Assembly (NCBI GenBank): GCA_938074335.1
Contig: CALJEL010000010.1
Span: 1 to 41,287, forward strand
Direction: 5' to 3'
DNA length: 41,287 nt
Source: an uncultured bacterium
GTDB lineage: Bacteria; Nitrospirota; Thermodesulfovibrionia; Thermodesulfovibrionales; CALJEL01
Shown here: positions 12,278 through 28,469 of the stretch, one piece after another
How positions within the stretch are numbered: position 1 is the stretch's first letter
Layout of the letters: each line of letters begins with the position of its first letter
Position numbers and translations under genes: made by a program
The notes under the pieces: model-generated
Told to the model about the DNA's origin: nothing
The model's input: the letters and a program-made list of their open reading frames with translations, nothing else
Databases searched by the model: none

Positions 12278-12298
12278 CGGGCTTGCGTTGAGGTCAAG

Positions 12299-12859
12299 AT
12301 GGGGAAAATAATAATGATAAGCCCTGCTGGTGAAATAGAGGCCTCCATAATAAAGGGAGTAAAAGAGACCATAGAACATAGATTCATGGCATCTGTCCTT
12401 GAGGACAGAAAACACCCTCTGCCACAGGAGGCCTTTGATCCAGAAAGGCTTCAGTACCATGCCCAGAGATTCTTAGAAAAGAGCGAGGCTCAGCTTCCCT
12501 CCTCCCCTTTAAGGGGGGTTGAGACCTTGCACCTCCTCCTTACCCATGTTGACCTCTACTGTCCTTCTTTAAATTATGTCTTCGGATATGCGGTGCCTGA
12601 AAGGAGAATTGCGATTGTCTCCACTGCAAGATTCAGAAATAAACTTTTTGAAAGGGCGGCAAAGACAGCTATACATGAGATCGGACATCTCTTTGGACTT
12701 TCCCACTGCCATGACCCGAAATGTGTGATGCATTTTTCCTTTGACCTTTCTGATACAGACAAAAAGACAGATCAACTATGCAGGGACTGCGAGAAGAGAC
12801 TTTCTTCAGTTATTTATCAGAGGAGGCAGCATGAAGCTTGGCATACTTGTGAATACTGA
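12299..12859 (+). CDS. amzA: Archaemetzincin-type zinc metalloprotease
   Basis: A 186-residue cytosolic protein with the metzincin zinc motif HEIGHLFGLSHC. The archaemetzincin-specific cysteine array follows: CHDPKCVMHFSFDLSD and LCRDCEKRL, which bind a second zinc. Natural substrates of archaemetzincins are unknown. It sits 21 bases after the rhodanese gene and overlaps the DsrE-like gene, so it is firmly inside the sulfur operon, an unexpected place for a protease. Confidence 0.9.
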   Translation: MGKIIMISPAGEIEASIIKGVKETIEHRFMASVLEDRKHPLPQEAFDPERLQYHAQRFLEKSEAQLPSSPLRGVETLHLLLTHVDLYCPSLNYVFGYAVPERRIAIVSTARFRNKLFERAAKTAIHEIGHLFGLSHCHDPKCVMHFSFDLSDTDKKTDQLCRDCEKRLSSVIYQRRQHEAWHTCEY

Positions 12860-13127
12860 CAGGAATCTTAAACACATCCTTGGCATTACAGAGGCTGCCC
12901 TGAGAAAAGGACATGAGGTGAGTCTGTTTGTCATGGACGATGGAGTAAGACTTCTCAGGGATGAGAGATTCACTGGATTATGTAAAAAGGTGTCCATGAG
13001 CTTCTGTGACCATAGCACACATGTGCTTAATGTATCAAAGAAAGGCATTCCTGAAGATATAATCTGCGGAAGCCAATATAACAATGCAGTGATGGCTCAT
13101 GACTCCGATAAGGTGATAGTCCTTTAA
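12831..13127 (+). CDS. DsrE-like sulfur-relay subunit
   Basis: 98 residues from ATG 12831, which has an AGAGGAGG site inside the end of the preceding gene (29-base overlap). The beta-alpha start MKLGILVNTDRN, the segment GHEVSLFVMDDGVRLL and the later cysteines (GLCKK, SFCDHS, IICGSQ) fit the DsrE/TusD fold, which carries persulfide sulfur. Two related small genes follow directly, mimicking a DsrEFH/TusBCD set. Confidence 0.75.
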   Translation: MKLGILVNTDRNLKHILGITEAALRKGHEVSLFVMDDGVRLLRDERFTGLCKKVSMSFCDHSTHVLNVSKKGIPEDIICGSQYNNAVMAHDSDKVIVL

Positions 13128-13140
13128 AGGAGAGATAAAA

Positions 13141-13410
13141 ATGGGACAGAAGAAAATAGCTGTAATGATCAGGGGAAGACAGTCAGAGGCCCTCAGGATG
13201 AGTGTGGGCCTGACTGTGCTTGATGATCAGGTGGAGATATTTATTACTGAACCATTAAAGGATGATCCAAAGACACTTACTGAGCTTGAAGGTGCAATGG
13301 AGCTTGGACTGAAGATTTATACCATCACAGAGGATCAGAGATTTCAGAGATTGAGTCTTGAGGAGATGGCAGAGAAAATACTTGAATATGATCATGTAAT
13401 TCCCTATTAG
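13141..13410 (+). CDS. DsrE/F-like small protein
   Basis: 89 residues, start preceded by AAAGGAGAG. The pattern IAVMIRGRQSEALRMSVGLT followed by a helix resembles the DsrE/DsrF superfamily, with its GLT helix after strand one. It has no cysteine, so it would be structural rather than a sulfur carrier. It lies 13 bases after the DsrE-like gene and 9 before the DsrH-like one. Confidence 0.65.
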   Translation: MGQKKIAVMIRGRQSEALRMSVGLTVLDDQVEIFITEPLKDDPKTLTELEGAMELGLKIYTITEDQRFQRLSLEEMAEKILEYDHVIPY

Positions 13411-13419
13411 GAGAAAAGG

Positions 13420-13581
13420 ATGAAGATTCTTTATATATTGACCTGTGAAGACGATACCGTGAAAGGACTCATGGAATTCCAGAAGAAATCTCATGAGGTA
13501 ATAAGCGTGGATATTGAAAGGGTTTCTTATGATGACCTTGTGGACCTGATATTCAGCAGTGATAAGGTTATCTCATGGTAA
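13420..13581 (+). CDS. Short DsrH/TusB-like protein
   Basis: 53 codons from ATG 13420 (preceded by GGAGAAAAGG) to TAA at 13579-13581. The translation starts MKILYILTCEDDT and ends YDDLVDLIFSSDKVISW. The C-terminal DxxVDL...KVxSW pattern, with a final tryptophan, is the DsrH/TusB ending. The usual length is about 95 residues, so the middle has been shortened or lost. Tight spacing to both neighbours argues that it is a real gene. Confidence 0.6.
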   Translation: MKILYILTCEDDTVKGLMEFQKKSHEVISVDIERVSYDDLVDLIFSSDKVISW

Positions 13582-13614
13582 AGATTAAAAATAAAATTTA
13601 TAAGGAGGACAGGC

Positions 13615-13779
13615 ATGGGAGAGGTAAAAGGCGGTTTGACACTCCCCTGGTTATGGGTAGCAATAATTGTTGCCTTTCTTGCCCTCGGGTTTATGCTTCC
13701 ACCACTTGATAAGCCCCTGAGGGAGCTTGCAAAGCAGGCACAAGAAATGAAGGCATCAATGACAGAGACTTCACAGTAA
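13615..13779 (+). CDS. Small single-span membrane protein
   Basis: 54 residues from ATG 13615 after TAAGGAGGA. There is one membrane helix (PWLWVAIIVAFLALGFMLPP) followed by a charged helix (REL AKQAQEMKA) on the other side. No family recognised. Its position between the DsrH-like gene and an exported protein, in front of a YeeE transporter, suggests an accessory membrane subunit. Confidence 0.7.
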   Translation: MGEVKGGLTLPWLWVAIIVAFLALGFMLPPLDKPLRELAKQAQEMKASMTETSQ

Positions 13780-13795
13780 AAAGGAGGATGAGAGC

Positions 13796-14248
13796 ATGAG
13801 AAGATTATTATTAATCGTTCTTGGTTTAACAGTACTCACTATTTCAGCAGGAGAGCTGAAGCTTAAGGAAGGCATCACCCTTAAGGCAGATGCAGAGGAA
13901 GTAACAGGTTTTAAGTGGATTCCAAGAAGGCCGGGGATTACCCGAGCACAGATTGCCCTTGGAAGGGCTGTAACACTTCCCTTTGAATTCTATATAAAGG
14001 GAGATGTCCAGAAGGTGAAGTTTGAGATCCCAAAAAAGTTTTCTGACCTCGGGATAGATGTAGCAGATGATGAGGTTACAGTAAAGGATGGAAAGGCAAG
14101 CTCTTCTGTAATATTCACCGTACCACCAGGAAAACCCCTCGGGAGATTCGAGCTTGAGATCACATTAAAGGATTCAAAGACAGGCAAGGAGCTCGGTAAA
14201 GGCACGATCCCCTTCATGCTCCTTCCACCTGGTGTAGGTGGATGCTGA
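13796..14248 (+). CDS. Exported beta-rich protein of unknown function
   Basis: 150 residues starting after AAAGGAGG. A signal peptide (LLLIVLGLTVLTISAG) is followed by alternating strands typical of an immunoglobulin-like fold (VTLPFEFYIKGDVQKVKFEIP, SSVIFTVPPGKPLGRFELEI). The protein ends in GVGGC, with a single C-terminal cysteine. I do not recognise the family. In this operon it could be a periplasmic binding or sulfur-carrying partner of the rhodanese or transporter; that is a guess from context. Confidence 0.75.
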   Translation: MRRLLLIVLGLTVLTISAGELKLKEGITLKADAEEVTGFKWIPRRPGITRAQIALGRAVTLPFEFYIKGDVQKVKFEIPKKFSDLGIDVADDEVTVKDGKASSSVIFTVPPGKPLGRFELEITLKDSKTGKELGKGTIPFMLLPPGVGGC

Positions 14249-14272
14249 AATACTAATTTCTAAGGAGGTCCT

Positions 14273-15685
14273 ATGTCAGAGATGGATTTTGGCATAAAAG
14301 GATGGTTTGAGACATGGTACAGAAAGTTCTTCAGGGAGAAGTGGCCACTCTGGATCGCTGCCATATTCATGGCACTTTCAGGGATAATTGCCTATGGTGT
14401 TGCCACATGGTCACTTTCAAGGACAGTGATGGGTGAGAATCCCTATGACCAGGCAAAACCCCTTGGCACATTCCTTGGACTGAAGGAGCTTGGTGGCATT
14501 ATAAACAGTGCCCTTGGAAAGCTCGGCCTTCCCCATTATCCCTTTAGTGGATACATCTGGCCTGATGGTCAGACCATAAGCTACTTTGTCCAGTATCCAA
14601 ACCCTTTGCTTGAGCCAACAGCAGGGACAATGCTTGGCATACTCTTTGGAGGTCTTATCGCAGCACTTCTTGCAAAGGAATTTGCGCTGAAGGTTCCCCT
14701 TGATAAACTTGAATATGGCCTTGCCCTTGTTGGTGGAGTACTCATGGGAGTGGGTGCAGTATTTCAGTTTGGATGTCCTATAGTGAGCACAACAAACCTT
14801 GGTGCAATGGGAGTTCAGGCAATAATAATGGTTATAGGGATGACCATAGGCTCATTCTTTGGTGCAAAGATAATTGTCTGGCTTGAAAAAAGGAGGCTTG
14901 CCTCTATAGCCTGTGTAACTGCTGATGGAGCTGGATACAGACCACTTATGCATTTTGAAAAGACAAAGACCATATGGCCAAAACCACCAGTGAATGCTGA
15001 TGGTGGTGAACCCTTTGGAATAAGGTTCCAGCCCTATCTTGGTCTGATTCTCATAGTGGTAATGTTTATTGTACTTTATAGATTCAGCCACATAGGTTAT
15101 CCTGCACTTTCCATGTCATTCCTTGCTGCTACCCTTACAGGGTTTGCAATGCAGCGTGGTGGTATGTGCTTTGCCTATGCCTACAGGGAACCATTCCTTA
15201 CGGGTTTTGCTGATATGTCAAGGGCAATGGCACTGCTTTATGGATTGCTCGTAATAGGTTTTCTTCCCTTCAAGCTCCTTGCAATAGCAATACCTGACAT
15301 ATCCTATGCAGAGATCTTTGCAGTAAGCCCGGCAGGGATAGGGGTGCTTATAGGTGCAATACTCTTTGGAATAGGTATGGCACTCAATGGAGCCTGTGTG
15401 AGCGATAGCCTCTGGAGGACCGCAGAAGGTCAGGTAAAGATATGGGTTGGACTTACAACACTCATATGTGTTTCATCCTGGCTCTTTCCCATGAGGGAGG
15501 AAAAATGGTTTAAATCAATCTTTGCACCTTTTGGTTCAAAGAATATAACTGATGTCTACCTTCCCAATATATTTGGAAGTTATCCAGTGGCTGTGTTCTT
15601 CACCCTTGGAGTGATAACACTCTGGGCGCTTCTTATGACATGGTTTGCTGGAAGGACCTTCAAGAGATATATGGAAGGAGCATAA
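14273..15685 (+). CDS. Large YeeE/YedE-family transporter
   Basis: A 470-residue polytopic membrane protein with three YeeE-type cysteine signatures: GAVFQFGCPIVSTTNLGAMG, MQRGGMCFAYAYREPF and GMALNGACVSDSLWRTAEG. It is longer than the transporter at 7051 and has an extra extracytoplasmic loop near the N-terminus. Translation starts after a strong AAGGAGG site. A canonical TusA gene follows after 44 bases, the transporter-carrier pairing expected for uptake of a reduced sulfur compound. Confidence 0.88.
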   Translation: MSEMDFGIKGWFETWYRKFFREKWPLWIAAIFMALSGIIAYGVATWSLSRTVMGENPYDQAKPLGTFLGLKELGGIINSALGKLGLPHYPFSGYIWPDGQTISYFVQYPNPLLEPTAGTMLGILFGGLIAALLAKEFALKVPLDKLEYGLALVGGVLMGVGAVFQFGCPIVSTTNLGAMGVQAIIMVIGMTIGSFFGAKIIVWLEKRRLASIACVTADGAGYRPLMHFEKTKTIWPKPPVNADGGEPFGIRFQPYLGLILIVVMFIVLYRFSHIGYPALSMSFLAATLTGFAMQRGGMCFAYAYREPFLTGFADMSRAMALLYGLLVIGFLPFKLLAIAIPDISYAEIFAVSPAGIGVLIGAILFGIGMALNGACVSDSLWRTAEGQVKIWVGLTTLICVSSWLFPMREEKWFKSIFAPFGSKNITDVYLPNIFGSYPVAVFFTLGVITLWALLMTWFAGRTFKRYMEGA

Positions 15686-15729
15686 ATGAAAGGTGAAATT
15701 TTCACCTCTAAAAATGTTAAGGAGGTAGT

Positions 15730-15972
15730 ATGGCAGTGACTACAGACATAAAGATTGACAGGGTTCTGGATGTAAAAGGACTTGTCTGCCCGAGGCCCAT
15801 GGTAATGACCATGAATACGCTTAAGACCATGGAAAAGGGACAGGTCCTTCAGGTCCTGGCAAATGATAGCAGCACAAAGCATAGCATCCCTGCACTCTGT
15901 GAAAGGAGCGGCTATAAGCTTCTTGAGATGAGGGAAGAGGCAGGGACCTTTATCTACATTATACAGAAGTAG
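15730..15972 (+). CDS. TusA-family sulfur carrier
   Basis: 80 residues with the canonical motif LDVKGLVCPRPMVMTMNTL, followed by VLANDSSTKHSIPALCERSGY and a closing strand. Cysteine in CPRP carries persulfide sulfur. The start ATG follows TAAGGAGG. Compared with the copy at 8164, this one keeps the full CPxP motif, so the two may serve different donors. Confidence 0.9.
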   Translation: MAVTTDIKIDRVLDVKGLVCPRPMVMTMNTLKTMEKGQVLQVLANDSSTKHSIPALCERSGYKLLEMREEAGTFIYIIQK

Positions 15973-16608: not shown

Positions 16609-16623
16609 GTGGCACAATATTCT

Positions 16624-17535
16624 ATGTTCAGGATAGGCCATCTATCAACCTTTTATCACACATCCATTCTTTTTCTAACTAAAAAGGAATTCATGGAGAG
16701 GCTTGGTGTTGAGTTAAGATGGAGGCTCTTTGGCACCGGCCCTGCGATAATTGATGCCTTTGACAAAAGAGAGATAGACCTTGCCTATTTAGGTCTAACA
16801 CCAGCTATAACTGGTATCGAAAGGGGTATACCAATTAAGTGCATAGCAGGTGGACATGTGGAGGGGACCGTGATATGTGGCTTAAATTCTCTTAAGGCTT
16901 ATCCTGAAATTGACCTTAAGGAATTTTTTCTTCAATTCAGGGGCAAGGTGATCGGAGTTCCTGCAAAGGGTTCGATCCATGATGTAATAATAAGAGGGTA
17001 TCTTGAGGAATCAGGTATCCTCCACATGGTAGAGATAAAGAACTTTCAATGGGCTGACCAGATCATTGAGGCAATGAAGAAGGGAGAGGTCTCCATAGCA
17101 GCTGGTACTCCAAATCTTGCCATAGCAGTAAAACGGTTTCTTGGCGGAAGGATTCTCTGGCCACCTGATAGACTATGGCCTTACAGCCCGAGTTACGGGA
17201 TACTGATAAGGACAGATGGTCCTCATGATGACAAATTCATAAGGGAATTTATTGGCCTTCATGAAGAGCTCTGTAATCTTTTAAGGGAAAAACCTCTTGA
17301 GGCATCTGAACTCATAGCATCCCTTGTCGGAGTGGTTGATGCAGACTTTATTTATGAGGCGATCCAGCTTTCTCCAAGATACTGTGCCTCCCTTCCAGAG
17401 GAGTATATCTCCTCCACACTCGGGCTCATGAAGGTTATGAAGAGGCTTGGTTATATTAACAGGGAATTTTCAAGGGATGAGATATTTGATGAAAGGTTTA
17501 TAAGGGAGCTTCATCAGGAGAAATCGCATTACTGA
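16624..17535 (+). CDS. Cytosolic NMT1/SsuA-like substrate-binding-fold protein
   Basis: About 303 residues of the type II periplasmic-binding fold: MFRIGHLSTFYHTSILFLTK, a DLAYLGLTPAITGIERG ligand-loop region and KVIGVPAKGSIHDVIIRGYLEESGI. These match nitrate/sulfonate/taurine ABC binding proteins. It has no signal peptide or lipobox, and no permease or ATPase gene lies nearby, so it is probably a soluble cytosolic protein. Its 3' end overlaps the 3' end of comDE on the other strand by 38 bases. Sulfonate-type binding proteins and the sulfonate chemistry of CoM synthesis make a link attractive but unproven. GTG 16609 is an alternative start; neither has a ribosome site. Confidence 0.75.
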   Translation: MFRIGHLSTFYHTSILFLTKKEFMERLGVELRWRLFGTGPAIIDAFDKREIDLAYLGLTPAITGIERGIPIKCIAGGHVEGTVICGLNSLKAYPEIDLKEFFLQFRGKVIGVPAKGSIHDVIIRGYLEESGILHMVEIKNFQWADQIIEAMKKGEVSIAAGTPNLAIAVKRFLGGRILWPPDRLWPYSPSYGILIRTDGPHDDKFIREFIGLHEELCNLLREKPLEASELIASLVGVVDADFIYEAIQLSPRYCASLPEEYISSTLGLMKVMKRLGYINREFSRDEIFDERFIRELHQEKSHY

Positions 17536-18649
17536 AATATTCCTTTATCTCTGAAGGAGGGAAGGGTATATCAGGGACTTCCTTATTACCTGGCAATGTA
17601 ACAGCATGGATGAATAAGGAGCCAGGGTATTTTTTATTTAATATCCTCCTCAAAAGCGCCTTTGAATAGACCTTAACTGTATGTTTAAAACCAAAGGCCC
17701 TTGCTATTGCCTCGAGGTTAATGAATCTTGAGGTGAGGGTGGGTTGATTGCCTGTGGAGCCATAGGCACCATTGTCAATTGCAACAATGATGAGGTTTTC
17801 TGGATTAAAAAATGCCACTGTCCCTAAAGAAGCTGGGTTCATAAGTATGCTTCCATCACCATCAATAACAATAACCCTCCTTTCAGTAAAAAGTGATATA
17901 CCAAGCCCCAGGGGAGTTGCCATCCCCATGCTACCAAGCATGTAAAAGTTAAGAGGTCTATGCCTTATGAAAAAGAGTTCTTTTGATGGTATCCCGAGGT
18001 TTGATACCACTATCTCATCCTTCAGCATTGATGCAATGGTCTTAATAAAATCAAAGCGCTGATATCTTATTAAGAGCCTGTTAACTGGCTTCACAGCCTT
18101 TACGCCTATACCTGCTACCTTTTGTCTTTTTATCCTTTGCTCCTTTTCCTTATGAAGCACTCCATCCCATATCTCAGGGCTCATGAGAAAGGCAGTGATC
18201 CTGTTTTTCTCATATGCCTCTGATAGCTTATGCCTCATGTGTTTAAGATCATCCTTTTTTTCAATTATCCTGTATTCAATACCGCAGCCATTGAGTATAC
18301 CCTGAAGGGACCTCCCCATCGGGATCTGAGCAGGGATCTTTTCATTATACACTCCCCTCCAGCTGACAAACAGGGCAAGGGGCAATTCATAGGTCTTTGT
18401 TAAAGACATAAGGGCATTCAGCATATTCCCCATACCTGAACTCTGAACAAAGAGTGCCGGCCTTTTACCTGCAAGGGCTGCACCAGCAGATATGCCAATC
18501 CCTTCCTCTTCCCTTGTAAGGGGGATATGTAAGAAGTTTTTTTCAATCAATGAAAGAAGATTCTTTATCTTTTCGCAGGGAAGGCTTAATACCGGATTTA
18601 TACCTGCTGATCTCAGTTCTTCTATGATTAACTCCTCAGATGTGTACAA
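17498..18649 (-). CDS. comDE: Sulfopyruvate decarboxylase, ComD-ComE fusion
   Basis: TPP enzyme converting sulfopyruvate to sulfoacetaldehyde in coenzyme M synthesis. The 383 residues contain the pyrimidine-binding half (about 1-170; activating glutamate in REEEGIG at 46-52, SWRGVYNEKIPAQIPMG) and the pyrophosphate-binding half (about 205-370; GDGSILMN at 264-271, IDNGAYGSTGNQPT). The halves are separate ComD and ComE in Methanocaldococcus but fused in Methanosarcina, as here. Phosphonopyruvate decarboxylase is the close alternative. The adjacent cysteate synthase and Hdr genes, and the lack of phosphonate genes, favour the CoM role. Start is TTG 18649 behind GAGGAGG, overlapping cysteate synthase by 22 bases. 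Confidence 0.88.
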   Translation of the reverse strand: MYTSEELIIEELRSAGINPVLSLPCEKIKNLLSLIEKNFLHIPLTREEEGIGISAGAALAGKRPALFVQSSGMGNMLNALMSLTKTYELPLALFVSWRGVYNEKIPAQIPMGRSLQGILNGCGIEYRIIEKKDDLKHMRHKLSEAYEKNRITAFLMSPEIWDGVLHKEKEQRIKRQKVAGIGVKAVKPVNRLLIRYQRFDFIKTIASMLKDEIVVSNLGIPSKELFFIRHRPLNFYMLGSMGMATPLGLGISLFTERRVIVIDGDGSILMNPASLGTVAFFNPENLIIVAIDNGAYGSTGNQPTLTSRFINLEAIARAFGFKHTVKVYSKALLRRILNKKYPGSLFIHAVTLPGNKEVPDIPFPPSEIKEYFSNAISPDEAPL

Positions 18650-19875
18650 AGGGCCTCCTCAATTTCCTCCTTCTGAGACCTCTTTGATATAAAAAGAGGT
18701 TTAACAGGATAGGTCCTGAAATCCCTTTTATATCTTTCCTCTCCACCTCCTGTTATATGAAGAAGTATGAGGTCCTCATTCCCCACGAGCTCATATCTTA
18801 CTGCCTGCCTGAGGCCTGCCAGGGCAGCACCACCTGCAGGCACTATATCAATACCTTCTGATTCAGCAAATAGTTCCATAGATGAATATATCTCATCGTT
18901 TGTCACACCATACATCTGCCCCTCTGTGGTCTCAAGGATATCATAAATCCCGCCTTTTACAGAATAGGCAGGATATCTACTGGAGAGGACCCTTGTGGAT
19001 ATCTTTTCTATTAAAGCAGGATCAACATCCTCAGGAGATATCTCCCGTGACCTCCTCTGCCATGCCCTTAACATTGGCACAAAGGGAAGGTTTTGAACAA
19101 GATGGAATCTTGGTAATTTCGTCCCGAATCTTCTTTCCCTTATAAGTCTCTCAGCCATTTCATAGACACCTATTGCTCCTGCACCACTTCCCACAGCCTG
19201 AAAATAGTGTTCAGGAAGTCTTCCAATGACTCTAACTGCTGAGAGAAGCACAGAGCCAAGGCCATCCCTCTTTGCAGGATTCTTCACACCTCCCTCAAAG
19301 GGCATACCTGTTATCTCCGAGATCCTTTTTGAAAGATCTATGGCATCAGCATAGTCTCCATCAATTACCACAAATGTAGCAGGATTACCATTCTCATGGA
19401 CATACCACATCTCCTTAAGACAGGCAAGGGGAACAACTATGATAACAGGAAAACCTGTAATAACAGAAAAATAGGCAAAGGCCCTTGCTGTATTTCCGGC
19501 TGAAGCCACAACAAAACCATTTATGCGGTTTTCTTTTGCATTTTCTATTACTGTAGCAACCTCTATTTCCTTGAAGGTGCATGTCCTTAACAGGCAGTTT
19601 CTTTCAGGCCAGTATCCGCTAAAGACTATATAGAGGTTTTTAAGCCCGAGTTTTTCTGAAAGTCCCTCTGATTTATAAACTACTGGTGTTCCTACATGGA
19701 TGGATGGATGGTGAACAGGAAGCCAGTTAAAACCCCAGAGGCCTTTATCTTCTTTTTTAAAAGGTTCGGTGTATTCAGTTATTACAAGTGAACCCTTACA
19801 GTGCTCGCAGAAGGCACAGTAGGAATCTTTCAATATCCTTCCACATCCCCTGCATCTTAATACAAAGTGGCTCAT
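18628..19875 (-). CDS. Cysteate synthase (threonine-synthase paralogue)
   Basis: PLP enzyme making L-cysteate from phosphoserine and sulfite, the first committed step of the Methanosarcinales CoM route. The 415 residues begin with a zinc-ribbon-like cysteine set (CRGCG, CAFCEHC). The PLP lysine context is TCTFKEIE (Lys102) rather than the threonine-synthase SFKDRG. SAGNTARAFAY, HYFQAVGSGAGAIGVYE and LVQNLPFVPM match what I recall of the Methanosarcina enzyme. The start overlaps the HdrD-like stop by four bases, and comDE follows with overlap. A plain threonine synthase is unlikely given the changed lysine motif and context. Confidence 0.85.
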   Translation of the reverse strand: MSHFVLRCRGCGRILKDSYCAFCEHCKGSLVITEYTEPFKKEDKGLWGFNWLPVHHPSIHVGTPVVYKSEGLSEKLGLKNLYIVFSGYWPERNCLLRTCTFKEIEVATVIENAKENRINGFVVASAGNTARAFAYFSVITGFPVIIVVPLACLKEMWYVHENGNPATFVVIDGDYADAIDLSKRISEITGMPFEGGVKNPAKRDGLGSVLLSAVRVIGRLPEHYFQAVGSGAGAIGVYEMAERLIRERRFGTKLPRFHLVQNLPFVPMLRAWQRRSREISPEDVDPALIEKISTRVLSSRYPAYSVKGGIYDILETTEGQMYGVTNDEIYSSMELFAESEGIDIVPAGGAALAGLRQAVRYELVGNEDLILLHITGGGEERYKRDFRTYPVKPLFISKRSQKEEIEEALCTHLRS

Positions 19876-21071
19876 ATAAGGCTTCCTATGAGTTCCATGA
19901 TATCAGTAATCCTTATTTGTTTTTCATAGCCTTCCATTGCCTCATGCATCTTTGAATAACAGGCAGGGCAGCTCAGTATCAGCCTGTCTGCACCTTTTTC
20001 TACAGCCTCATCAATGATGAGTCTGCCCATCTTTATGGCATTTTCATGAAAGACCTTTCTTGCTGCTCCACCTGCACCGCAACACTGAGAATAAAGACCA
20101 TGCCTTTCAAATTCAATCAGTTCTATATCAGGTATGCTTTTCAATACATACCTTGGCTCCTCTATCACACCCACTCCCCTGCTCAGATAACAGGGGTCAT
20201 GGTAGATAAGCCTCTCTTTGAGATGGTCTTTAATAATTAATCTTTTCTCCTTTATCGCCTCAGCAATAAACTGGCTTATGTGCCTGATCTTAAAGGGAAG
20301 GGGTCTTCCGTACAGAGATGGCCAGTCCCTTGCCATTATATTTACACAGCATGGACAGGAGCTGATAAGGAGCTTTACACCCCTTGTCTCATAGGCACTG
20401 ACAAGTCTCCTGACAAGGTCCTCAAGCATATCCCATTGTCCTGTTATGAAAAGGGGAAAACCACAACAGACTTCCTCTTCTGGTGGAAGCATGGTAAAGG
20501 CATAACCAGTTGCATGAAGTGCAAGGACATCTCCCCTTACCATGGGCTGTGCCTCATAACAGCCAGTACAGCCAGCATAATAGCCTATCTCTGCCCTTTC
20601 ATGAACCTTTATATGCTCGGGAAACCAGCTGAATCTCTCCTCTGGAGGTTTATTATATACATTTCCTGTTTTTTTCACAAACTCTGTCAGATTTGCCTGT
20701 GGACCTATAGGTCCAAGACCCATCTCCACCATCTTTCGCCTGAGCACAGGCCATAATCTCTGTGTAAATATCCCAACCTCGCAGGCCTCTCCACAGGCAC
20801 CACAGGTAGTGCATTCATAAACAGCCCTTACAAAGTCCTCAAGGAGTCTCCTGTCCACCTTGCCTCCTGTTATCCTGGCCTTGAGACCTTCTGTATTCTC
20901 TATGAACTCCCTGTAGAGCCTTATCTTCTCAGGAGGTGATATCTGCCTTCTTCCTGTTACCTCCTGTACAGGACACCATTTCAGGCATTCACTGCATCTT
21001 GTGCAGGCATCAAGTTCAACCAATTGCCTCTTAGAGAGGCCATGAGAAAAGGAAAATTTCCTCTCAGTCAT
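19872..21071 (-). CDS. hdrD: HdrD-like heterodisulfide reductase Fe-S subunit
   Basis: 399 residues from ATG 21071 (GGGAGG site); an upstream TTG/ATG-less extension is not needed. Two [4Fe-4S] ferredoxin motifs come first (CTRCSECLKWCP at 23-34; CTTCGACGEAC at 87-97). Two CCG domains follow: Cys168/171, CC202-203 and 239/241-242, then Cys294, CC330-331, 368/371. The second CCG domain is the kind that holds the noncubane cluster at the disulfide site. Size and order match Methanosarcina HdrD (about 400 residues) rather than the longer DsrK. It overlaps the cytochrome b gene by eight bases. Other CCG proteins (glycolate or lactate oxidase subunits) are possible, but the pairing and CoM genes favour HdrD. 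Confidence 0.82.
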   Translation of the reverse strand: MTERKFSFSHGLSKRQLVELDACTRCSECLKWCPVQEVTGRRQISPPEKIRLYREFIENTEGLKARITGGKVDRRLLEDFVRAVYECTTCGACGEACEVGIFTQRLWPVLRRKMVEMGLGPIGPQANLTEFVKKTGNVYNKPPEERFSWFPEHIKVHERAEIGYYAGCTGCYEAQPMVRGDVLALHATGYAFTMLPPEEEVCCGFPLFITGQWDMLEDLVRRLVSAYETRGVKLLISSCPCCVNIMARDWPSLYGRPLPFKIRHISQFIAEAIKEKRLIIKDHLKERLIYHDPCYLSRGVGVIEEPRYVLKSIPDIELIEFERHGLYSQCCGAGGAARKVFHENAIKMGRLIIDEAVEKGADRLILSCPACYSKMHEAMEGYEKQIRITDIMELIGSLI

Positions 21072-21858
21072 GGACAAATCCTCCCAATCTCTGGCTCCTG
21101 AGGAGGGCATCCTTTGTGGTTATCTGGGCAGCGAACATGTGAAACTGCTTGGAAAAGGGGATAAAGGCAATAAAAGAAAGTGCTGTCATAACATGAATAC
21201 ACCAGAAGACAATATAGGTCTTCGGACTGTTCACACCACTAAAGAGAGCTGCAAACAAAGCTCCAACCGGAGACCAATCCATAAAAGGTGGATCTGTCAG
21301 AGAAAGCCTGAGTCCTTCTACAGAAAAACCGCTCAGGACTATGATTATGAGGAGGACGAGCAAGGGCAGGTCATCCCATCCTGAGATGATATCCTCTGAC
21401 AGCCTGATCCTCCTTACAATAAAAAAGGCTGTGCCAGTAAATACTGCAAGACCCGCCAGATCGAGTATGAAGGAGAAGATCAGGTAAATGTATCCCTTAA
21501 GGATATTAAGTCTTAGATAATGGTCAAGACCAACCAGAATAGTTCCAATAAAGAGGATTGTAAATCCCCAGTAGATAAAGATGAGCATTATGCCCCTTAT
21601 CCTGCTTTTACTCATGACCCTTCTTGCCAGGAGGCACTCTTTAGAAAAGAAATATCTGAAGCTCAAAAGAAGCAGGCCTCCTAATCCCTTTCCTTCTAAA
21701 AGGTCATCAGGTTCATCCCTGCCCTTCAGCCATATAGAGAATCTTGAGTATAGGCCAGCTAAAAAGATCAACAAGGAAAGCAGAGATGATATGTAAAAGG
21801 CTATTTTCAGCAACCAGGGTATGTATATAAAGGCCTCACGAGACATATCAAACCTCAC
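21064..21858 (-). CDS. hdrE: HdrE-like membrane cytochrome b subunit
   Basis: 264 residues with about five membrane helices, NarI/DsrM/HdrE type. Candidate haem-ligand histidines lie in GLDHYLRLN and in the last span (CIHVMTALSFIAFIPFSKQFHMF). The size matches HdrE of Methanosarcina. It would pass electrons between a membrane quinone and the HdrD-like subunit encoded immediately downstream. The start overlaps the folD stop by four bases. In methanogens the partner is methanophenazine; in this bacterium a menaquinone is more plausible. Confidence 0.8.
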   Translation of the reverse strand: MRFDMSREAFIYIPWLLKIAFYISSLLSLLIFLAGLYSRFSIWLKGRDEPDDLLEGKGLGGLLLLSFRYFFSKECLLARRVMSKSRIRGIMLIFIYWGFTILFIGTILVGLDHYLRLNILKGYIYLIFSFILDLAGLAVFTGTAFFIVRRIRLSEDIISGWDDLPLLVLLIIIVLSGFSVEGLRLSLTDPPFMDWSPVGALFAALFSGVNSPKTYIVFWCIHVMTALSFIAFIPFSKQFHMFAAQITTKDALLRSQRLGGFVHD

Positions 21859-22787
21859 ATTGAACAGGGACTCTTCATCATCTCGGTTCTTATAGCGGAC
21901 CTGACAGTATTTTTAAGTAACATTGCAATTGTGACTGGTCCAACTCCGCCAGGAACAGGAGTGATGAAGGATGCTTTTTTTGAAACACTTTCAAAATCGA
22001 CATCTCCCACAATCTTTCCATTAGAAAGTACATTTATACCTATATCAACAACCACCGCTCCTTCTTTAATCATATCATCCTTTATAAGACCTGCAACACC
22101 TGTAGCAGAACAGATTATATCTGCCTGCTTTGTAAAAAATGAAAGGTTATAGGTCTCCTTATGGCATACCGTTACCGTTGCGTCCTTTGCAAGGAACATT
22201 AATGAAAGAGGCTTCCCAACGGTAAGGCTCTTTCCTATAACGACTACATGCTTCCCTTTAATTGGAATGTTGTAATATTCAAGAAGTCTGATTACACCAA
22301 AGGGTGTACAGGGAAGGAAACCGGTAATGAGTGGTTCATAGCTGTTTATTATCTCATCAGCTTTATTTCTAAAGAGTTGAAAGGTAGATTCATCAGCAGC
22401 AAGTCTACCCACTGATAGGGAGCCAAGACCGTCCACATCCTTGTCTGGTAATATTGAATTGATAACCCTTCTGGCGTTTATCCTTTTCGGCAGTGGTAAA
22501 AGGATCAGCAGACCGTGAATTCTCTCATCGTGATTTACAGAGTTAATTATGTTCAGTATCTCATTTAGGTTTACTTCTTCGGATAACCTGAATTCATATG
22601 GTATTATACCAACATTTTTGCACGCCATAAGGGTTGCTGAGAAATACTGCTTTGAGGCAGGATTCTCTCCTATAAGCATCAGACCAAGACCCACCTCAAT
22701 ACCCGATTCCTTAAGCCTCTTTACCTCATTTTTAACCTTATCCTTAATCTCTGCTGCAAGTCTTTTGCCATCCATTATTACTGCCAT
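21855..22787 (-). CDS. folD: Divergent FolD (methylene-H4F dehydrogenase; cyclohydrolase residues missing)
   Basis: 310 residues with the FolD fold: LIGENPASKQYFSA, KDVDG (Asp119 retained), PCTPFGVIRLL and the nucleotide loop VIGKSLTVGKPLS. Two residues essential for cyclohydrolase activity are changed. The lysine four after the active-site tyrosine is Thr52 (YFSAT), and the VQLPLP glutamine is Leu96 (LLPLP). There is also about a 20-residue insertion near 126-150. It probably only oxidises or reduces methylene-/methenyl-H4F. The ATG follows AAAGGAGG and overlaps the previous gene by 44 bases. A normal bifunctional folD may exist elsewhere in the genome. Confidence 0.88.
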   Translation of the reverse strand: MAVIMDGKRLAAEIKDKVKNEVKRLKESGIEVGLGLMLIGENPASKQYFSATLMACKNVGIIPYEFRLSEEVNLNEILNIINSVNHDERIHGLLILLPLPKRINARRVINSILPDKDVDGLGSLSVGRLAADESTFQLFRNKADEIINSYEPLITGFLPCTPFGVIRLLEYYNIPIKGKHVVVIGKSLTVGKPLSLMFLAKDATVTVCHKETYNLSFFTKQADIICSATGVAGLIKDDMIKEGAVVVDIGINVLSNGKIVGDVDFESVSKKASFITPVPGGVGPVTIAMLLKNTVRSAIRTEMMKSPCSM

Positions 22788-23106
22788 CCAGTGCCTCCTT
22801 TGTAAACCTGATACTCACATCTTTTGGGATGCATAGTCCTGCCTCGACCTCAAGGGTCTTCAATATGCCAGCAGGTACAGGACATGCCACATGCTTGAGA
22901 TGCAGAGCTGCTGCCTTATATACAGGGTTGTTGAGAAAATCTTTAAAGGCTATCATGATATCAAGGGTATCAATCTCTCTGGCCATTGCCATTACCATCT
23001 CACAGCCTGATTCAATCTTTATCTTTATTTTTCTGTCCTTAGCCTTCTCTGCTATAATTTCTGTTGAAAAACCACAGTTCCCGGCGAATACTATAACCCT
23101 GGTCAT
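22744..23106 (-). CDS. DUF6951-like small protein of corrinoid methyltransferase clusters
   Basis: 120 residues with features of a small family found beside MtrH/RACo genes: VFAGNCGFSTEIIAEK at the start, IKIESGCEMVMAMARE, and AALHLKHVACPVPAGILKTLEVEAGLCIPKDVSI. Conserved Cys/His (HLKHVACPVP) might bind metal. The function is unknown. It overlaps the RACo gene by four bases and folD by 44, so it is translated with them. Family naming is from memory. Confidence 0.65.
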   Translation of the reverse strand: MTRVIVFAGNCGFSTEIIAEKAKDRKIKIKIESGCEMVMAMAREIDTLDIMIAFKDFLNNPVYKAAALHLKHVACPVPAGILKTLEVEAGLCIPKDVSIRFTKEALDGSNNGWQKTCSRD

Positions 23107-25073
23107 TTGATCTCTACAGAATATGCTCTATCCTGAAGAAGGCTCTTCAGATTAGGAAAAGGATCCTTCATATGGGGTATATGCATGGCCTGCATGAACT
23201 CCTTCTGAAATTCTGGCTCAACGGCGATCTCAACAAATTCAACCCATCTTGCCTTCTCATCAGCCTCCTGTCTCTTTGACACATTGAGCAGGGCCATCCT
23301 TGCACCATCTCCGGCTGCATTACCAACCGCATAGACATTGTTTATATCACAATCAGGAAACATCCCCAGTGTTAAGGCAGACTCCTTATCAATGTAACTT
23401 CCAAAGGCACCTGCAAGGATCACCTTATCAACCCTCTCTATGCCCATCCTTTTCATTAATAGCTTTGCTCCAGCATAGAGAGCTGCCTTTGCAAGCTGTA
23501 CTGCCCTCACATCTGACTGTGTTATTGTGATATCCATTCCTATGGATGTTTCATTTGCCCAGGCTATTACATATTCAGGCATACCATCAGTACCTCTTCG
23601 TATCCTCGGGGTATTAAGATTCATATTGAACCTTCCTGTCTTATCGATTATACCAGCCTTAAAAATCTCGGCTACAGCATCTATGATACCTGAGCCACAT
23701 ATTCCCTTAGCATCTATCTTTTCAATATGGGTATGCCAGTCTGCCTTTCCAATTACCCTATATTCAGGTTCCTTTGTAACAGGGTCTATCCTTACCTTTT
23801 CAATAGCACCTGGTGCAGCCCTCATGCCGAATTTTATCTGGGCACCCTCAAAGGCAGGTCCTGTTGCGCAGGATGTGGAGCATACCTTCTTTTTGTTTCC
23901 AAGGAGCAGTTCACCATTTGTACCTATATCTATTATTAAAACAATCTCATCCATGTTATAGGGCTCTTCTGCAATGAGGACACCCACATTGTCAGCACCA
24001 ACAAACCCTGCCTCAATGGGAAGGACATGGATATAGGATGAAGGGTTGATTTTTATCCCTAAATCCCTTGCCTTTATGTTCAGCGAGTGCTGTACAGCAG
24101 GTATAAATGGTGATCTTCCTATGTATTCAGGATTGAATCCAAGGAATATATGGTGCATGGCTGTATTAAATACAACGGTCATGTCCACTATGGCATGACC
24201 GCCATCCCTTCCATCTACCCTTAGATCAGCAGAGACCTTTTCAATAATCTCATTCAATCCGTCAATAATTGCCTTCTGCATGATCTTCAAGCCTTCAGGG
24301 TTTGTCATGGCATAGGTTATCCTTGACATCACATCCTCTCCATAAGGGACCTGTGGGTTCATCATGGACTCGGTATTTATAACCTTTCCCGTGTTGAGGT
24401 CACAGAGATAGCCAACCACTGTGGTTGTTCCTATATCCACCGCAATCCCATAGGAGGCCTCCACAAAGCCAGGTTCTACCTTTATTATCTCCCTGTTCAT
24501 CCATACAGAGACCGTGATCTTCCACTCACCCCTTCTCATGATATCTTGAAGTTCTTTAAGAACAGGATAGTCGATCTGAAGGCCTGATAATCCATAATCT
24601 TCCTTCAGTTTCCTGAAGAGCCTTTCGGCATCTCCTTCTGTAAGATCATGAAGGGTAGGGGGTTCAAATTCAACAAAGTATTTCTTAACAGCTGGATTTA
24701 CAGGGATGGACAATTCTCTTGCTGCCTTTCTTACAACCTGTTTGCCTGCCCTTGACTTTTCAGGTACAAATATCTTTACATCTCCATAAATCTCTGCCTT
24801 GCAGGCAAGCCTTATGTTTGGGCCATCCTCTGGCTTTATAAATTTTCTTTCTACATCCAATAGAGGGCTGAGATGGGACATCCTTGACTCCAGTGCATCT
24901 TTTTCAAAATACCCTTCCTCTATCCTTACCTTACATTTACCGCAGGTACCCTTTCCTCCGCATATTGATTCTATGTCAACACCGAGCTGCCGGGCTGCAT
25001 CAAGCAATGTGGTACCACTTTGAACCTCACCTCTTCTACCTGATGGCTGGAATATCACCCTGTGTTTTGACAT
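23103..25073 (-). CDS. RACo-type reductive activator of corrinoid proteins
   Basis: ATP-dependent reactivase that reduces inactive Co(II) corrinoid to Co(I). From ATG 25073 (AAAGGAGG site) the protein has 656 residues. The N-terminal plant-type [2Fe-2S] ferredoxin domain has Cys38, Cys44, Cys47 and Cys91. A linker and a large ASKHA-fold domain (DUF4445) follow, with AVDIGTTTVVGYL, IIDIGTNGELLLGN and ILAGAFGSYID. It sits two genes after the corrinoid protein, its expected client. Electrons could come from the Fe-S protein encoded just before. Confidence 0.93.
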   Translation of the reverse strand: MSKHRVIFQPSGRRGEVQSGTTLLDAARQLGVDIESICGGKGTCGKCKVRIEEGYFEKDALESRMSHLSPLLDVERKFIKPEDGPNIRLACKAEIYGDVKIFVPEKSRAGKQVVRKAARELSIPVNPAVKKYFVEFEPPTLHDLTEGDAERLFRKLKEDYGLSGLQIDYPVLKELQDIMRRGEWKITVSVWMNREIIKVEPGFVEASYGIAVDIGTTTVVGYLCDLNTGKVINTESMMNPQVPYGEDVMSRITYAMTNPEGLKIMQKAIIDGLNEIIEKVSADLRVDGRDGGHAIVDMTVVFNTAMHHIFLGFNPEYIGRSPFIPAVQHSLNIKARDLGIKINPSSYIHVLPIEAGFVGADNVGVLIAEEPYNMDEIVLIIDIGTNGELLLGNKKKVCSTSCATGPAFEGAQIKFGMRAAPGAIEKVRIDPVTKEPEYRVIGKADWHTHIEKIDAKGICGSGIIDAVAEIFKAGIIDKTGRFNMNLNTPRIRRGTDGMPEYVIAWANETSIGMDITITQSDVRAVQLAKAALYAGAKLLMKRMGIERVDKVILAGAFGSYIDKESALTLGMFPDCDINNVYAVGNAAGDGARMALLNVSKRQEADEKARWVEFVEIAVEPEFQKEFMQAMHIPHMKDPFPNLKSLLQDRAYSVEIK

Positions 25074-25765
25074 ACATAAACCTCCTTTAAAATCTTTCTT
25101 CCGAAGGGGCATATATTTATACAGAGCCCGCAGTTTGGTTTACCTGATATAGTTTTTCTTGATCTTCTATATTCCTCACATCTTTTAATATCAACAAGTT
25201 CCTCATAGGGCCTATCGATTGACCAGTCCTTTTCATTTATCGCATTAGCAGGGCAGTACCGGACACAGAGAAAACAACTTCCACAGAGTCCTTTTTCTAT
25301 GGGGCTACCAGGCTCAAAGGGTGCATCTGTCAGAACAGTGGCAAGCGAGAGCCTTGGACCATACTGAGGATTTATGAAAAGCCCATTTCTACCTATCCAG
25401 CCAAGTCCTGAACAGGTTGCAGCAATCTTATGGGTAAAAAGGCCATAAAGCCTTGAGATGAATTTATCCGATCTCTTTGAAGAATCAGGAGGTATGGCAA
25501 GGTATCTGAATCCCCTTTTTCTTAAAAAGAGTGTTACCACCTTTTGAAGGTCTTCAAGTATCTCTATGGTCCTGTCAGTAAGCCTTCTGTTTAGCCCTAT
25601 TGAAACAGCCTTTTTTAGATGGGCGATATCTCCCTTTACAACCATGCTTACATCAGCAAAACCCACCACAGTGGCGCCGAGACTTATCAGAAGCTCTTTA
25701 AGCTCATGGTTAAGGGATTCCATATTGTGGTTTTCTCTATTCACTGACAGCCTTTGCCTCTGCAT
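25055..25765 (-). CDS. QueG-like double [4Fe-4S] protein
   Basis: Up to 236 residues. The C-terminal half is a two-cluster ferredoxin domain (CGSCFLCVRYCPANAI and CGLCINICPFGRKIL). The middle matches epoxyqueuosine-reductase-like proteins (GLGWIGRNGLFINPQYGPRLSLATVLTD). It is much shorter than QueG and lies between the corrinoid protein and RACo genes, so a role in feeding electrons to, or protecting, the corrinoid is more likely than tRNA modification. The start is uncertain: ATG 25765 overlaps the corrinoid gene and its ribosome site is too close, while ATG 25723 has none. Confidence 0.75.
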   Translation of the reverse strand: MQRQRLSVNRENHNMESLNHELKELLISLGATVVGFADVSMVVKGDIAHLKKAVSIGLNRRLTDRTIEILEDLQKVVTLFLRKRGFRYLAIPPDSSKRSDKFISRLYGLFTHKIAATCSGLGWIGRNGLFINPQYGPRLSLATVLTDAPFEPGSPIEKGLCGSCFLCVRYCPANAINEKDWSIDRPYEELVDIKRCEEYRRSRKTISGKPNCGLCINICPFGRKILKEVYVCQNTG

Positions 25766-26432
25766 CTTCCTTTAATTTTTTAAGTGCGCTTATCATGTTG
25801 ATTGCCTCTTTCAGGGCATTGCTTGCATCCTTTGCATATCCATCAGCTCCCCACTTTTCAGCAATATCATGGGATACCGGGGCGCCTCCAATCATGATCT
25901 TTGCCTTTGGATTTCTCTTTTTTATCTCATCAATAACCTTTTTCATACCAACCATGGTCGTTGTCATCATGGCAGAAAGACAGACAAGATCTGCATCAGT
26001 GCGGAGCTGTTCTTCAACAAACCTGTCAAGAGGTACATCCCTTCCAAGGTCATAGACAGTAAAACCAGCAACATCAAACATCATCTTCACGATATTCTTT
26101 CCAATATCATGGACATCTCCCTCTACAGTTCCTATTACCACAGTGCCTTTTATACCAAGGTCAAGCTTTTTCATATGGGGTTTCAGGATATCAAGACCTG
26201 CATAAAGGGCATCGGCGCACATGAGGAGCTCAGGAACAAAATATTCCTGTCTTTCAAAGAGCCTTCCAACCTCCTCCATACCTGAAACAAGTCCATTAAA
26301 TATAGCCTCTGCTGGATCAAGGCCAGCCTCAAGGGCCTCCTTTGCTGCATCCCTTGCACCGTCTTCATCATAATTGATTACGGCCCTTTTCAGTTTTTCA
26401 AGTATCTCCTTCTTTTTTTCTTCGTCTATCAT
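25737..26432 (-). CDS. Methyltransferase corrinoid protein (MtaC/MtbC family)
   Basis: Carries the methyl group on a cobamide. The 231 residues comprise a four-helix cap (about 1-90) and a B12-binding Rossmann domain with the lower-ligand motif D106-x-H108-x-x-G111 (GTVEGDVHDIGKNIV) and GGAPVSHDIAEKWGADGYA. It starts four bases inside the end of the methyltransferase gene (ATGA). It is the only corrinoid protein in the window, so both UroD-type proteins and the MtrH-like protein probably act on it. Confidence 0.95.
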   Translation of the reverse strand: MIDEEKKKEILEKLKRAVINYDEDGARDAAKEALEAGLDPAEAIFNGLVSGMEEVGRLFERQEYFVPELLMCADALYAGLDILKPHMKKLDLGIKGTVVIGTVEGDVHDIGKNIVKMMFDVAGFTVYDLGRDVPLDRFVEEQLRTDADLVCLSAMMTTTMVGMKKVIDEIKKRNPKAKIMIGGAPVSHDIAEKWGADGYAKDASNALKEAINMISALKKLKEDAEAKAVSE

Positions 26433-27469
26433 GACCTATCCCCTCCTTTGTAATTCTTTATCTCTTCCATCATGGCATGGAAGTTTTCCGGTGGTATGGT
26501 TGGCCAGATGTCACATCCAGGCCAGATGGCACTTGCTCCATCGTCAATGCACTTCCTTACAGCCTCCCTTACCTTTTCAGTGGTGCCCTGGACAAGGATA
26601 TTGTATGGATCAAGATTTCCGAATATGAGGGCATCTTTTCCAAGTGTTTTTCTTGATTCAGCCAGGTCATTTTTCTGATCAACACTGATAGCTGTTGCTC
26701 CTGTCTCTATCATAAACTGCACTATCTGATTGGTCTTCCCGCATATATGCAAGACCGATGGAATGGTTATTCTTGATATGACCTTAATGAGGGGCTTTTG
26801 AATGAGATTCTTGAATACCCTCGGACTCAGGACATCAGAGGTCGCACCCATCTCCCTTACGGTAAGGTAGTCCAATCCTGCATCTATAAGTTCCTCTGCC
26901 ACCATAATAATGGCATCAGCAAGGAGGTCAAGAAGAAGGCTCACCTTATCAGGTTTTTTAAAGGAGAGCTTTAATAATTCATTCAGGTCCATTACCTGAC
27001 CTGCAAGTGTAAAGGGTCCAAGCACATAGGAGCCAATAGCCACCTCGTTACCCACCCGGTTTTTGGCTATCTTTATAGCCTCTACAAGAAGAGGGATCCT
27101 ACCCTTTTTCTTGAGATCATCAGGTATGGTAATCTCCATTTCCTGCTCTGAGTTAATTAATTTTTTCTTTATGGTTGGATAAAGAATACCTTCTGAGTGG
27201 GCATACACATTTATCTCGCATCCCAGGGCCTCTGCCTCTATACACAGGTCAAAGGGAAGGACCGCACATTCGAAACCGAATAGTTCATAGGTTGATGCAG
27301 AGGCCTCTGCCATCTTTTTTGCATCAAGGTGTATATCTGCAAATCTGTGACCCATCTTTTTAAGTGCATATTCAGTCACATTTCCCATTCCACTGAAACA
27401 GGGAATTCTGTCAACCTCCTTTTTCTGAAAAAGATTTAAAACCCGTTCTTTCGGAGATATTGTGCTCAT
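26429..27469 (-). CDS. UroD-superfamily methyltransferase 1 (MtaA/MtbA-like)
   Basis: 346-residue TIM-barrel protein. The thiol-activating zinc ligands of MtaA/MtbA are all visible: His241 and Cys243 in LHICGKT and Cys319 in WPGCDIWP (MtbA uses His239, Cys241, Cys316). Such enzymes transfer methyl between a corrinoid and coenzyme M. Related bacterial UroD proteins are O-demethylases acting on methoxy substrates, so substrate-side activity is also possible. It is flanked by MtrH-like and corrinoid genes, both with four-base overlaps. With CoM synthesis encoded in the same train, a methylcobamide:CoM role is reasonable. Confidence 0.88.
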   Translation of the reverse strand: MSTISPKERVLNLFQKKEVDRIPCFSGMGNVTEYALKKMGHRFADIHLDAKKMAEASASTYELFGFECAVLPFDLCIEAEALGCEINVYAHSEGILYPTIKKKLINSEQEMEITIPDDLKKKGRIPLLVEAIKIAKNRVGNEVAIGSYVLGPFTLAGQVMDLNELLKLSFKKPDKVSLLLDLLADAIIMVAEELIDAGLDYLTVREMGATSDVLSPRVFKNLIQKPLIKVISRITIPSVLHICGKTNQIVQFMIETGATAISVDQKNDLAESRKTLGKDALIFGNLDPYNILVQGTTEKVREAVRKCIDDGASAIWPGCDIWPTIPPENFHAMMEEIKNYKGGDRS

Positions 27470-28449
27470 ACTGCCTCCTTTACTCTTCGTGCCTTTGCAC
27501 CTGAGATAAGTTTTTCCACAAACTCATTGAAATAAAGTTTTATAGGCAGGGAAGGATTTTCCAGGACACTATTCCTTTCATGATAAACAAGGGTGCTGAG
27601 AAGAATATGGGCTGTTGCTACAGCATGGAATATCCTTGGTGCATTCACAATCGGTCCGTAGAAATTGAAATCACTCCAGAGGTTAGAGGCTATTGCCTGA
27701 GCTACTGCATCCATTACCCTGAATCCTTCTATTCCCCATTTATCCTTTATCTCCTTCCACATGTTGGTACCATTGGAATAGGCACCTCCAGCTGGAAGGC
27801 CATATTTTTCTTTGATCAGTCTGTTGGCTATCAAAGAAAAGGATGTGGCAGGAAGGTTCATTACAGATGTATCCACAAGGATTGTATCGAACTGGTCAGC
27901 ACCCTGAGAAAGTATATAATCCAGTGACTTTAATCTTCCATAAGGGGTCTGATCAGTATCATCGAAGACCTGTATTACCACATGTCTTATTCCCAGGTCC
28001 TTCAGCCTCTGGACCTGTGCCTTTATGTCCTTATCCCAGGGTGTTATGCTGTTGTAAAGAAATTTATCCTGAAGCCCGAGTTTTGCAATGTATTCAGTTG
28101 TCTTTATCCTTTTTTCAGCTACCCACATATCTATTCCAAAGGGCATATCTGTAGTCTCAAGATAAAAATCTATGTATATCTTTGCCTCTTCAGGTGTATT
28201 TGCAACCATCGCAACCATGGACGGGATACCGGTAATACTGGAGAGTTCCTCCTGTCTCTTAATGAGCTCACGGGCTCTCTGGCGGTCAAAATTGCCCTTT
28301 CTATCCTGAAGTAATCTGTCTTTGTTATGAAACATAGAGGCAATCAATAAAGGTGGATTTTCTCCTGGCTGACCGCCTACCTTGATATTCCCTATAGTAA
28401 AGACCTTCTGTTCTGTTTTAAATGTAAAGATATCCTTTCTTTCTTCCAC
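27466..28449 (-). CDS. MtrH-like methyl-tetrahydrofolate:corrinoid methyltransferase
   Basis: About 327 residues of the MtrH family: FTIGNIKVGGQPGENPPLLI, FDRQRARELI, the substrate-site region YNSITPWDKDI and KEKYGLPAGGAYSNGTNMW. In bacteria such proteins move methyl between corrinoid and tetrahydrofolate, which agrees with metF and folD in the same cluster. I prefer GTG 28449, which has GAGGTG four bases upstream, to ATG 28479. The latter lies inside the loop of a GC-rich hairpin, has no ribosome site and would add ten atypical residues. It ends with a four-base overlap into the UroD gene. Confidence 0.88.
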   Translation of the reverse strand: MEERKDIFTFKTEQKVFTIGNIKVGGQPGENPPLLIASMFHNKDRLLQDRKGNFDRQRARELIKRQEELSSITGIPSMVAMVANTPEEAKIYIDFYLETTDMPFGIDMWVAEKRIKTTEYIAKLGLQDKFLYNSITPWDKDIKAQVQRLKDLGIRHVVIQVFDDTDQTPYGRLKSLDYILSQGADQFDTILVDTSVMNLPATSFSLIANRLIKEKYGLPAGGAYSNGTNMWKEIKDKWGIEGFRVMDAVAQAIASNLWSDFNFYGPIVNAPRIFHAVATAHILLSTLVYHERNSVLENPSLPIKLYFNEFVEKLISGAKARRVKEAV

Positions 28450-28469
28450 TTTACACCTCACGATTTTTT

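Follow-up and report, generated by a model that had tools for sequence, protein, structure and literature searches.

Coenzyme M (CoM) is known in archaea, alongside alkyl-CoM reductases, and in a small number of alkene-oxidizing bacteria, which make it via the Xanthobacter XcbB1-E1 pathway. This analysis concerns a pair of genes resembling hdrD and hdrE of the archaeal heterodisulfide reductase HdrDE that lies beside genes for CoM precursor synthesis in an uncultured bacterium of the Nitrospirota (class Thermodesulfovibrionia, order Thermodesulfovibrionales). The window, the whole stretch of DNA that was analyzed, is 41,287 nucleotides (nt) long (contig CALJEL010000010.1, positions 1 to 41,287); the source genome is 2.2 Mb. 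The reading favored here, to which we give an even chance, is that the pair is an HdrDE-type, menaquinone-linked thiol/disulfide oxidoreductase serving CoM in a CoM-linked methyl-transfer system of a group of anaerobic Nitrospirota that operates without methyl-coenzyme M reductase (MCR).

Two described proteins are needed to judge this locus. ComF is the known final enzyme of CoM synthesis and turns sulfoacetaldehyde into CoM; it carries a ferredoxin domain, and the ferredoxin partner of the related L-ASST is thought to supply electrons (PMC12068725). EtfD has lost disulfide chemistry: Thr replaces one cysteine of its first CCG motif (CCG1), His583 (in CPHC) caps the second noncubane cluster, and two His ligate one heme (PMC13083937). 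An HdrDE-type oxidoreductase is itself of a known kind. No description of this operon setting was found in the literature searched, and a search for CoM in Nitrospirota or Thermodesulfovibrionia returned nothing on point; description elsewhere is possible.

The pair and the CoM genes are as follows:
21064 to 21858, minus strand: HdrE-like membrane subunit of the NarI/HdrE type, 264 amino acids (aa), five helices
19872 to 21071, minus strand: HdrD-like protein, 399 aa; an alternative ATG at 21110 gives 412 aa
18628 to 19875, minus strand: cysteate synthase (NCBIfam TIGR03844, 449 bits, cut-off 325)
17498 to 18649, minus strand: fused sulfopyruvate decarboxylase ComDE (TIGR03845 and TIGR03846, both above cut-off)

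Each of these genes, and the folD gene ahead of them, overlaps the next on the minus strand. The longest ATG frame of the HdrD-like protein encodes 412 aa; the 399-aa version starts at the ATG at 21071, which overlaps the HdrE stop by 8 nt (CATGACTGA). The shorter version is preferred because of this overlap and because the HdrE and HdrD genes of relatives overlap likewise, by -7 to -10 nt. The HdrD stop and the cysteate synthase start have ATGA (19872 to 19875) in common, and this 4-nt overlap recurs in many relatives.

HdrD and cysteate synthase are distributed together. Cysteate synthase is present in 43 of 295 Nitrospirota genomes, and all 43 also encode an HdrD protein. These are orthologs in 42 cases, mostly with 61-76% identity (in G222 as two fragments); the HdrD of G216 is a 41% variant within the same methyltransferase-CoM operon. 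In the latter (L121/L131), HdrD comes before HdrE. An ortholog with no cysteate synthase is confined to two incomplete genomes, G126 (74% complete) and G294 (88%). Both states are found within at least ten families, all of them concordant, and in G005 and G017 the two genes are on separate contigs and both are retained. A second sample, partly overlapping the first, comprised 59 bacterial cysteate-synthase loci from named genomes. HdrD is nearby in 53 of the 59, usually directly upstream, and a methyltransferase island precedes it in most loci whose contig is long enough. At one of the 53 (L181) the nearby pair belongs to HdrD2, a second Nitrospirota family, and the ortholog lies on that contig too, at a distance of about 100 kb. 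The six loci where HdrD is not nearby are L130, L174 and L175, on contigs of 3-5 kb, L132, which is the split case G005, L163, with little upstream sequence, and L185, taken up below. The conserved neighborhood and the co-distribution indicate that the association of HdrDE with CoM genes is not due to chance. The earlier note, made from the sequence alone, had proposed direct coupling of the pair to CoM genes, a proposal that the overlaps bear out and that synteny and co-distribution support very strongly.

Cysteate synthases of bacteria fall into a single clade that excludes the archaeal ones. Locus L091 (G058) has HdrD and ComDE with no cysteate synthase between them; the first CoM gene may have been lost there, or sulfopyruvate may come from another source. 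A full operon is present at L162, in a record labeled Thermoleophilia (Actinomycetota); its HdrD falls within the Nitrospirota clade, which indicates either a transfer or a mislabeled metagenome-assembled genome.

Phylogenetic reconstruction with 44 sequences places the CoM-operon HdrDs with the archaeal HdrDs that have an HdrE partner (support 98/96, and 99/98 in a second tree that leaves out the long-branched DsrKs). Approximately unbiased (AU) tests reject a grouping with GlpC (p 7e-7). A grouping with DsrK, a long branch, is formally unrejected (p 0.51), as is one with HdrD2 (p 0.11). TmcB is represented by one long-branched sequence (L253), and a quick tree puts this sequence with DsrK. 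The likeness to HdrD read in the earlier note stands, and the outcomes that it named as counting against this are not seen: GlpC is rejected, both noncubane motifs are complete and DsrK is without the first CCG motif, although a union with DsrK survives the AU test. No HdrD model is among the NCBIfam matches of the HdrD-like protein, and the ranking of those matches, with TfrB first and LdhH second, is identical for archaeal HdrD and the window protein.

Several other identities were considered and rejected. The DsrK model gives 81 bits (cut-off 400) and the TmcB model 70 bits (cut-off 735), DsrK has no first CCG motif whereas the HdrD-like protein has two, and a separate DsrK is encoded in the same genome (contig C37, row L003). 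A GlpC or lactate/glycolate oxidase subunit is rejected: the AU test excludes the grouping with GlpC, and the operon has no GlpA- or LldD-type partner. Membership in EtfD was set aside in view of the intact CC of CCG1 (no Thr) and of CPCC rather than CPHC.

The HdrD-like protein has two N-terminal ferredoxin motifs (C36/39/42/46 and C100/103/106/110, in 412-aa numbering) and two full CCG motifs (C181-C215C216-C252-C255 and C307-C343C344-C381-C384). Pfam CCG matches it in two stretches (81.9 bits). The CCG motifs fit CX31-39CCX35-36CXXC in all 70 CoM-operon members, and the eight ferredoxin and ten CCG cysteines are invariant among 39 aligned homologs. The two ferredoxin motifs and two complete CCG domains described in the earlier note are thus confirmed for genes at the coordinates listed above. 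All ten cysteines of the two noncubane clusters are thus in place. An additional cysteine of the window protein, Cys184, was dropped as a functional residue; it is not conserved.

Cys254 is a different matter. This extra cysteine (CPCC) is invariant in the 70 CoM-operon members; the same position holds Gly in five of five archaeal HdrDs and ten of ten HdrD2s, Met in the G216 and G048 variants, His in DsrK, and Thr or Ser in GlpC. The HMMER alignment sets it exactly on His583 of EtfD. It is the sharpest departure from HdrDE. The CoM-operon HdrD keeps the full Hdr cysteine set and adds one conserved thiol, placed by homology where the two clusters meet; this thiol may either cap a noncubane cluster, as in an electron wire, or join in catalysis. 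The AlphaFold model of the HdrD-like protein is confident (predicted local distance difference test score 88.8). For both subunits the best match among solved structures is Mycobacterium smegmatis EtfD (9ojn); for the HdrD-like protein a LutA-LutB model and then HdrB chains follow.

The HdrE-like subunit has five long predicted membrane helices, and a profile comparison aligns it to archaeal HdrE (E 6e-21). Three His are conserved among archaeal HdrE sequences, the first in helix 2 and the others in or near helix 5; the window protein keeps His222 and His240, both in helix 5. The match to archaeal HdrDE in size and gene order that the earlier note stated holds. The note's label "cytochrome b" is best kept as putative: of the archaeal set, just the two helix-5 His remain. 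Most relatives have a divergent upstream subunit instead, mostly of 216-260 aa, and 47 of 52 assigned upstream subunits fit a four-His NarI pattern. A conserved C-terminal His-Asp/Glu was dropped as a functional motif and is unused as evidence, since the HdrD start codon lies over these residues (CATGA) and largely fixes them.

Upstream of the pair lie genes for methyl-transfer and folate proteins:
21855 to 22787, minus strand: FolD, methylene-tetrahydrofolate (THF) dehydrogenase/cyclohydrolase (profile match)
22744 to 23106, minus strand: DUF6951 protein (profile match)
23103 to 25112, minus strand: RACo-type corrinoid reductive activator (profile match)
25055 to 25765, minus strand: QueG/reductive-dehalogenase-like Fe-S protein (profile match)
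25737 to 26432, minus strand: corrinoid (B12-binding) protein (sequence features of the translation; conserved in relatives)
26429 to 27469, minus strand: MtaA/CmuA-family methyltransferase (zinc ligands HxC...C: His241, Cys243, Cys319)
27466 to 28479, minus strand: MtrH-family methyltransferase (profile match)
28494 to 28937, minus strand: carboxymuconolactone decarboxylase (CMD)/AhpD-like protein (translation read by eye; conserved in relatives)
28982 to 30010, minus strand: second UroD-family methyltransferase (same HxC...C zinc ligands)
30233 to 31096, minus strand: MetF-like methylene-THF reductase (translation read by eye only)

The overlaps persist upstream from FolD through the DUF6951 gene to the MtrH-family gene (28479), and the whole is therefore one overlapping run of eleven genes, ahead of which stand the CMD/AhpD-like gene and the second UroD-family gene. 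The HxC...C zinc ligands of both UroD-family proteins are also present in archaeal relatives. MCR was not found in 45 cysteate-synthase genomes or in the source genome (a Methanolobus control was positive). The source genome also carries a subunit of acetyl-CoA synthase/CO dehydrogenase.

Other genes of the window were noted in passing. An SsuA/NMT1-like substrate-binding protein is encoded at 16609-17535 (plus strand); about ten loci have it close to ComDE, in most cases on the other strand, and in relatives the binding domain begins at the very start, with no signal peptide visible by eye. It is a candidate CoM sensor or piece of the missing CoM synthase step. Sulfur-handling genes recognized by eye at 11252-15972 (plus strand; rhodanese, two DsrE-like proteins, a YeeE/YedE-type transporter and TusA) were not seen as conserved neighbors in relatives; a further YeeE-like protein is at 7051-8160. 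At 39530-41070 (minus strand) a tandem pair of proteins with several CxxCH motifs probably represents multiheme c-type cytochromes.

According to the favored reading, in which the pair serves CoM, cysteate synthase and ComDE would produce sulfoacetaldehyde, the CoM precursor, which an enzyme other than ComF would convert to CoM. The zinc-motif UroD-family proteins would put methyl groups onto or off CoM, and neighboring enzymes would shuttle methyl groups among the corrinoid, a zinc-bound thiol (proposed to be CoM) and THF. The two noncubane clusters of HdrD would be the binding site for CoM thiols or for a CoM disulfide, either CoM-S-S-CoM or CoM-S-S-R; from there electrons would travel by way of the two ferredoxin clusters to HdrE and on to the quinone pool. 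Menaquinone has a potential of about -74 mV and CoM-S-S-CoB, the disulfide with coenzyme B (CoB), one of about -140 mV, which makes oxidation of the thiol by menaquinone as plausible as reduction of the disulfide. Disulfide reduction is the leading explanation of function, and it is unproven. A bolder form, in which bacteria have a CoM-based methyl metabolism that is free of MCR and probably of CoB, with Cys254 forming a mixed disulfide with CoM in CoB's stead and coupling this to menaquinone, seems rather unlikely.

Six observations weigh against a CoM-serving thiol/disulfide oxidoreductase. ComF, the third member of the archaeal-type CoM set of which cysteate synthase and ComDE score above cut-off, was not found: the sampled Nitrospirota genomes with cysteate synthase give no match to ComF/Mmp16 (TIGR03287) or to COG1900 (PF01837), and with the known final enzyme missing we can only infer CoM as the end product. 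The Gly at the CxGC position of archaeal HdrD CCG1 is not kept in the CoM-operon family (Cys in 70 of 70), and a Cys for Gly at the position of the cluster-capping His583 means that the site may not cleave disulfides. The HdrE-like subunit lacks the helix-2 heme His of archaeal HdrE. The AU test leaves the union with DsrK standing. Locus L185 has the methyltransferase island and the CoM genes and is truly devoid of HdrDE at the site. Finally, a variant HdrD-HdrE pair in G048 (L123; 38% identity to the window protein) adjoins a likely molybdopterin oxidoreductase and a ferredoxin at a locus with no CoM genes, so the HdrDE module is used elsewhere too. As a separate observation, a strong ComF/Mmp16 match (503 bits) does occur in the same phylum, in G116 (L064/L263), where no cysteate synthase was found.

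The invariance of Cys254, its alignment with His583 and the match of both subunits to 9ojn would also suit an EtfD-like wire, in which the CCG domains only conduct between a soluble partner and menaquinone and Cys254 caps the second cluster; the molybdopterin oxidoreductase beside the G048 variant points the same way. The second CCG1 cysteine, which is Thr in EtfD, is nevertheless intact in all CoM-operon members, no EtfAB gene was recognized in the operon, and the co-distribution with cysteate synthase is left unexplained unless the partner is itself linked to CoM. We consider such a wire a real but minor possibility. The missing ComF and COG1900 open another route: conversion of sulfoacetaldehyde to CoM needs sulfur and two electrons, and HdrDE could supply electrons to the ComF replacement or form it. 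The overlap of HdrD with cysteate synthase, its tracking of that gene across the phylum, the ferredoxin domain of ComF and the electron role suggested for the L-ASST partner (PMC12068725) would fit. Since HdrDE stays with the methyltransferases and away from the CoM genes in G005 and G017, L185 has CoM genes without it at the locus, and the step asks for a stronger donor than menaquinol, a role in CoM synthesis is unlikely.

The operon itself suggests that the pair might link the quinone pool either to the oxidation of folate one-carbon units by MetF/FolD or to the re-activation of corrinoids, with RACo and the QueG-like protein: FolD overlaps HdrE, and the latter two proteins are encoded in the same operon. 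FolD is present in only 8 of the 59 loci, however, corrinoid activation needs a potential far below that of menaquinol, and neither version explains the tie to cysteate synthase; a link of this kind is decidedly doubtful. That the pair is a sulfur-metabolism module of the DsrMK/TmcBC type, acting on DsrC-trisulfide or similar and here by happenstance, is very improbable: the union with DsrK is unrejected and DsrK and HdrD are known homologs, but DsrK entirely lacks the first CCG motif and is encoded separately in this genome, L253 groups with DsrK, and the model scores are far under their cut-offs.

A conserved operon that unites an HdrDE-type enzyme, corrinoid methyltransferases and CoM precursor genes of the Methanosarcina type, scattered across lineages of a whole bacterial phylum and free of MCR, points to an undescribed use of CoM. 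Whether Nitrospirota synthesize CoM, what replaces ComF and what role an Hdr-type enzyme has without CoB become directly testable questions.

Among described systems, Xanthobacter also makes CoM as a bacterium; the operon described here instead has cysteate synthase and ComDE, as in Methanosarcina. No Xcb genes were recognized in the window, and a genome-wide search for them was not made. DsrMK and TmcBC belong to the same superfamily and also pair a cytochrome-b-type subunit with a CCG protein, but DsrK is without CCG1. The HdrD2 proteins of Nitrospirota (420-475 aa) have the same domain plan, complete cysteines and their own cytochrome-b-like subunit; they form a separate clade, keep the Gly (CAGC) and occur away from CoM genes too. 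They were seen at seven loci (L100, L112, L160, L164, L177, L181 and L256), several times beside DUF6951 and CoM genes. EtfD, the mycobacterial electron-transfer flavoprotein:menaquinone oxidoreductase, likewise consists of a five-helix membrane part, ferredoxin domain and two CCG domains, with a potential extra cluster ligand at the position of Cys254; it is one gene against two here, with Thr against an intact CC in CCG1 and His against Cys. Two Nitrospirota proteins (L248 in G101 and L249 in G071; f21) have C-T in CCG1 and CPHC and are likely EtfD relatives. Archaeal HdrDE (Methanosarcinales; Methanoperedens, Methanosalsum, Methanolobus, ANME-2) has the same E-D gene order and similar sizes, and its HdrD is the tree neighbor, with 33-36% identity over the full length and the same two ferredoxin and two CCG motifs. 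The differences are that MCR was not found in the Nitrospirota genomes with cysteate synthase, that Cys254 takes the place of Gly, and that the helix-2 heme His is gone from the HdrE of the window. Cys254 and the reduced heme ligation set this pair apart from genuine HdrDE.

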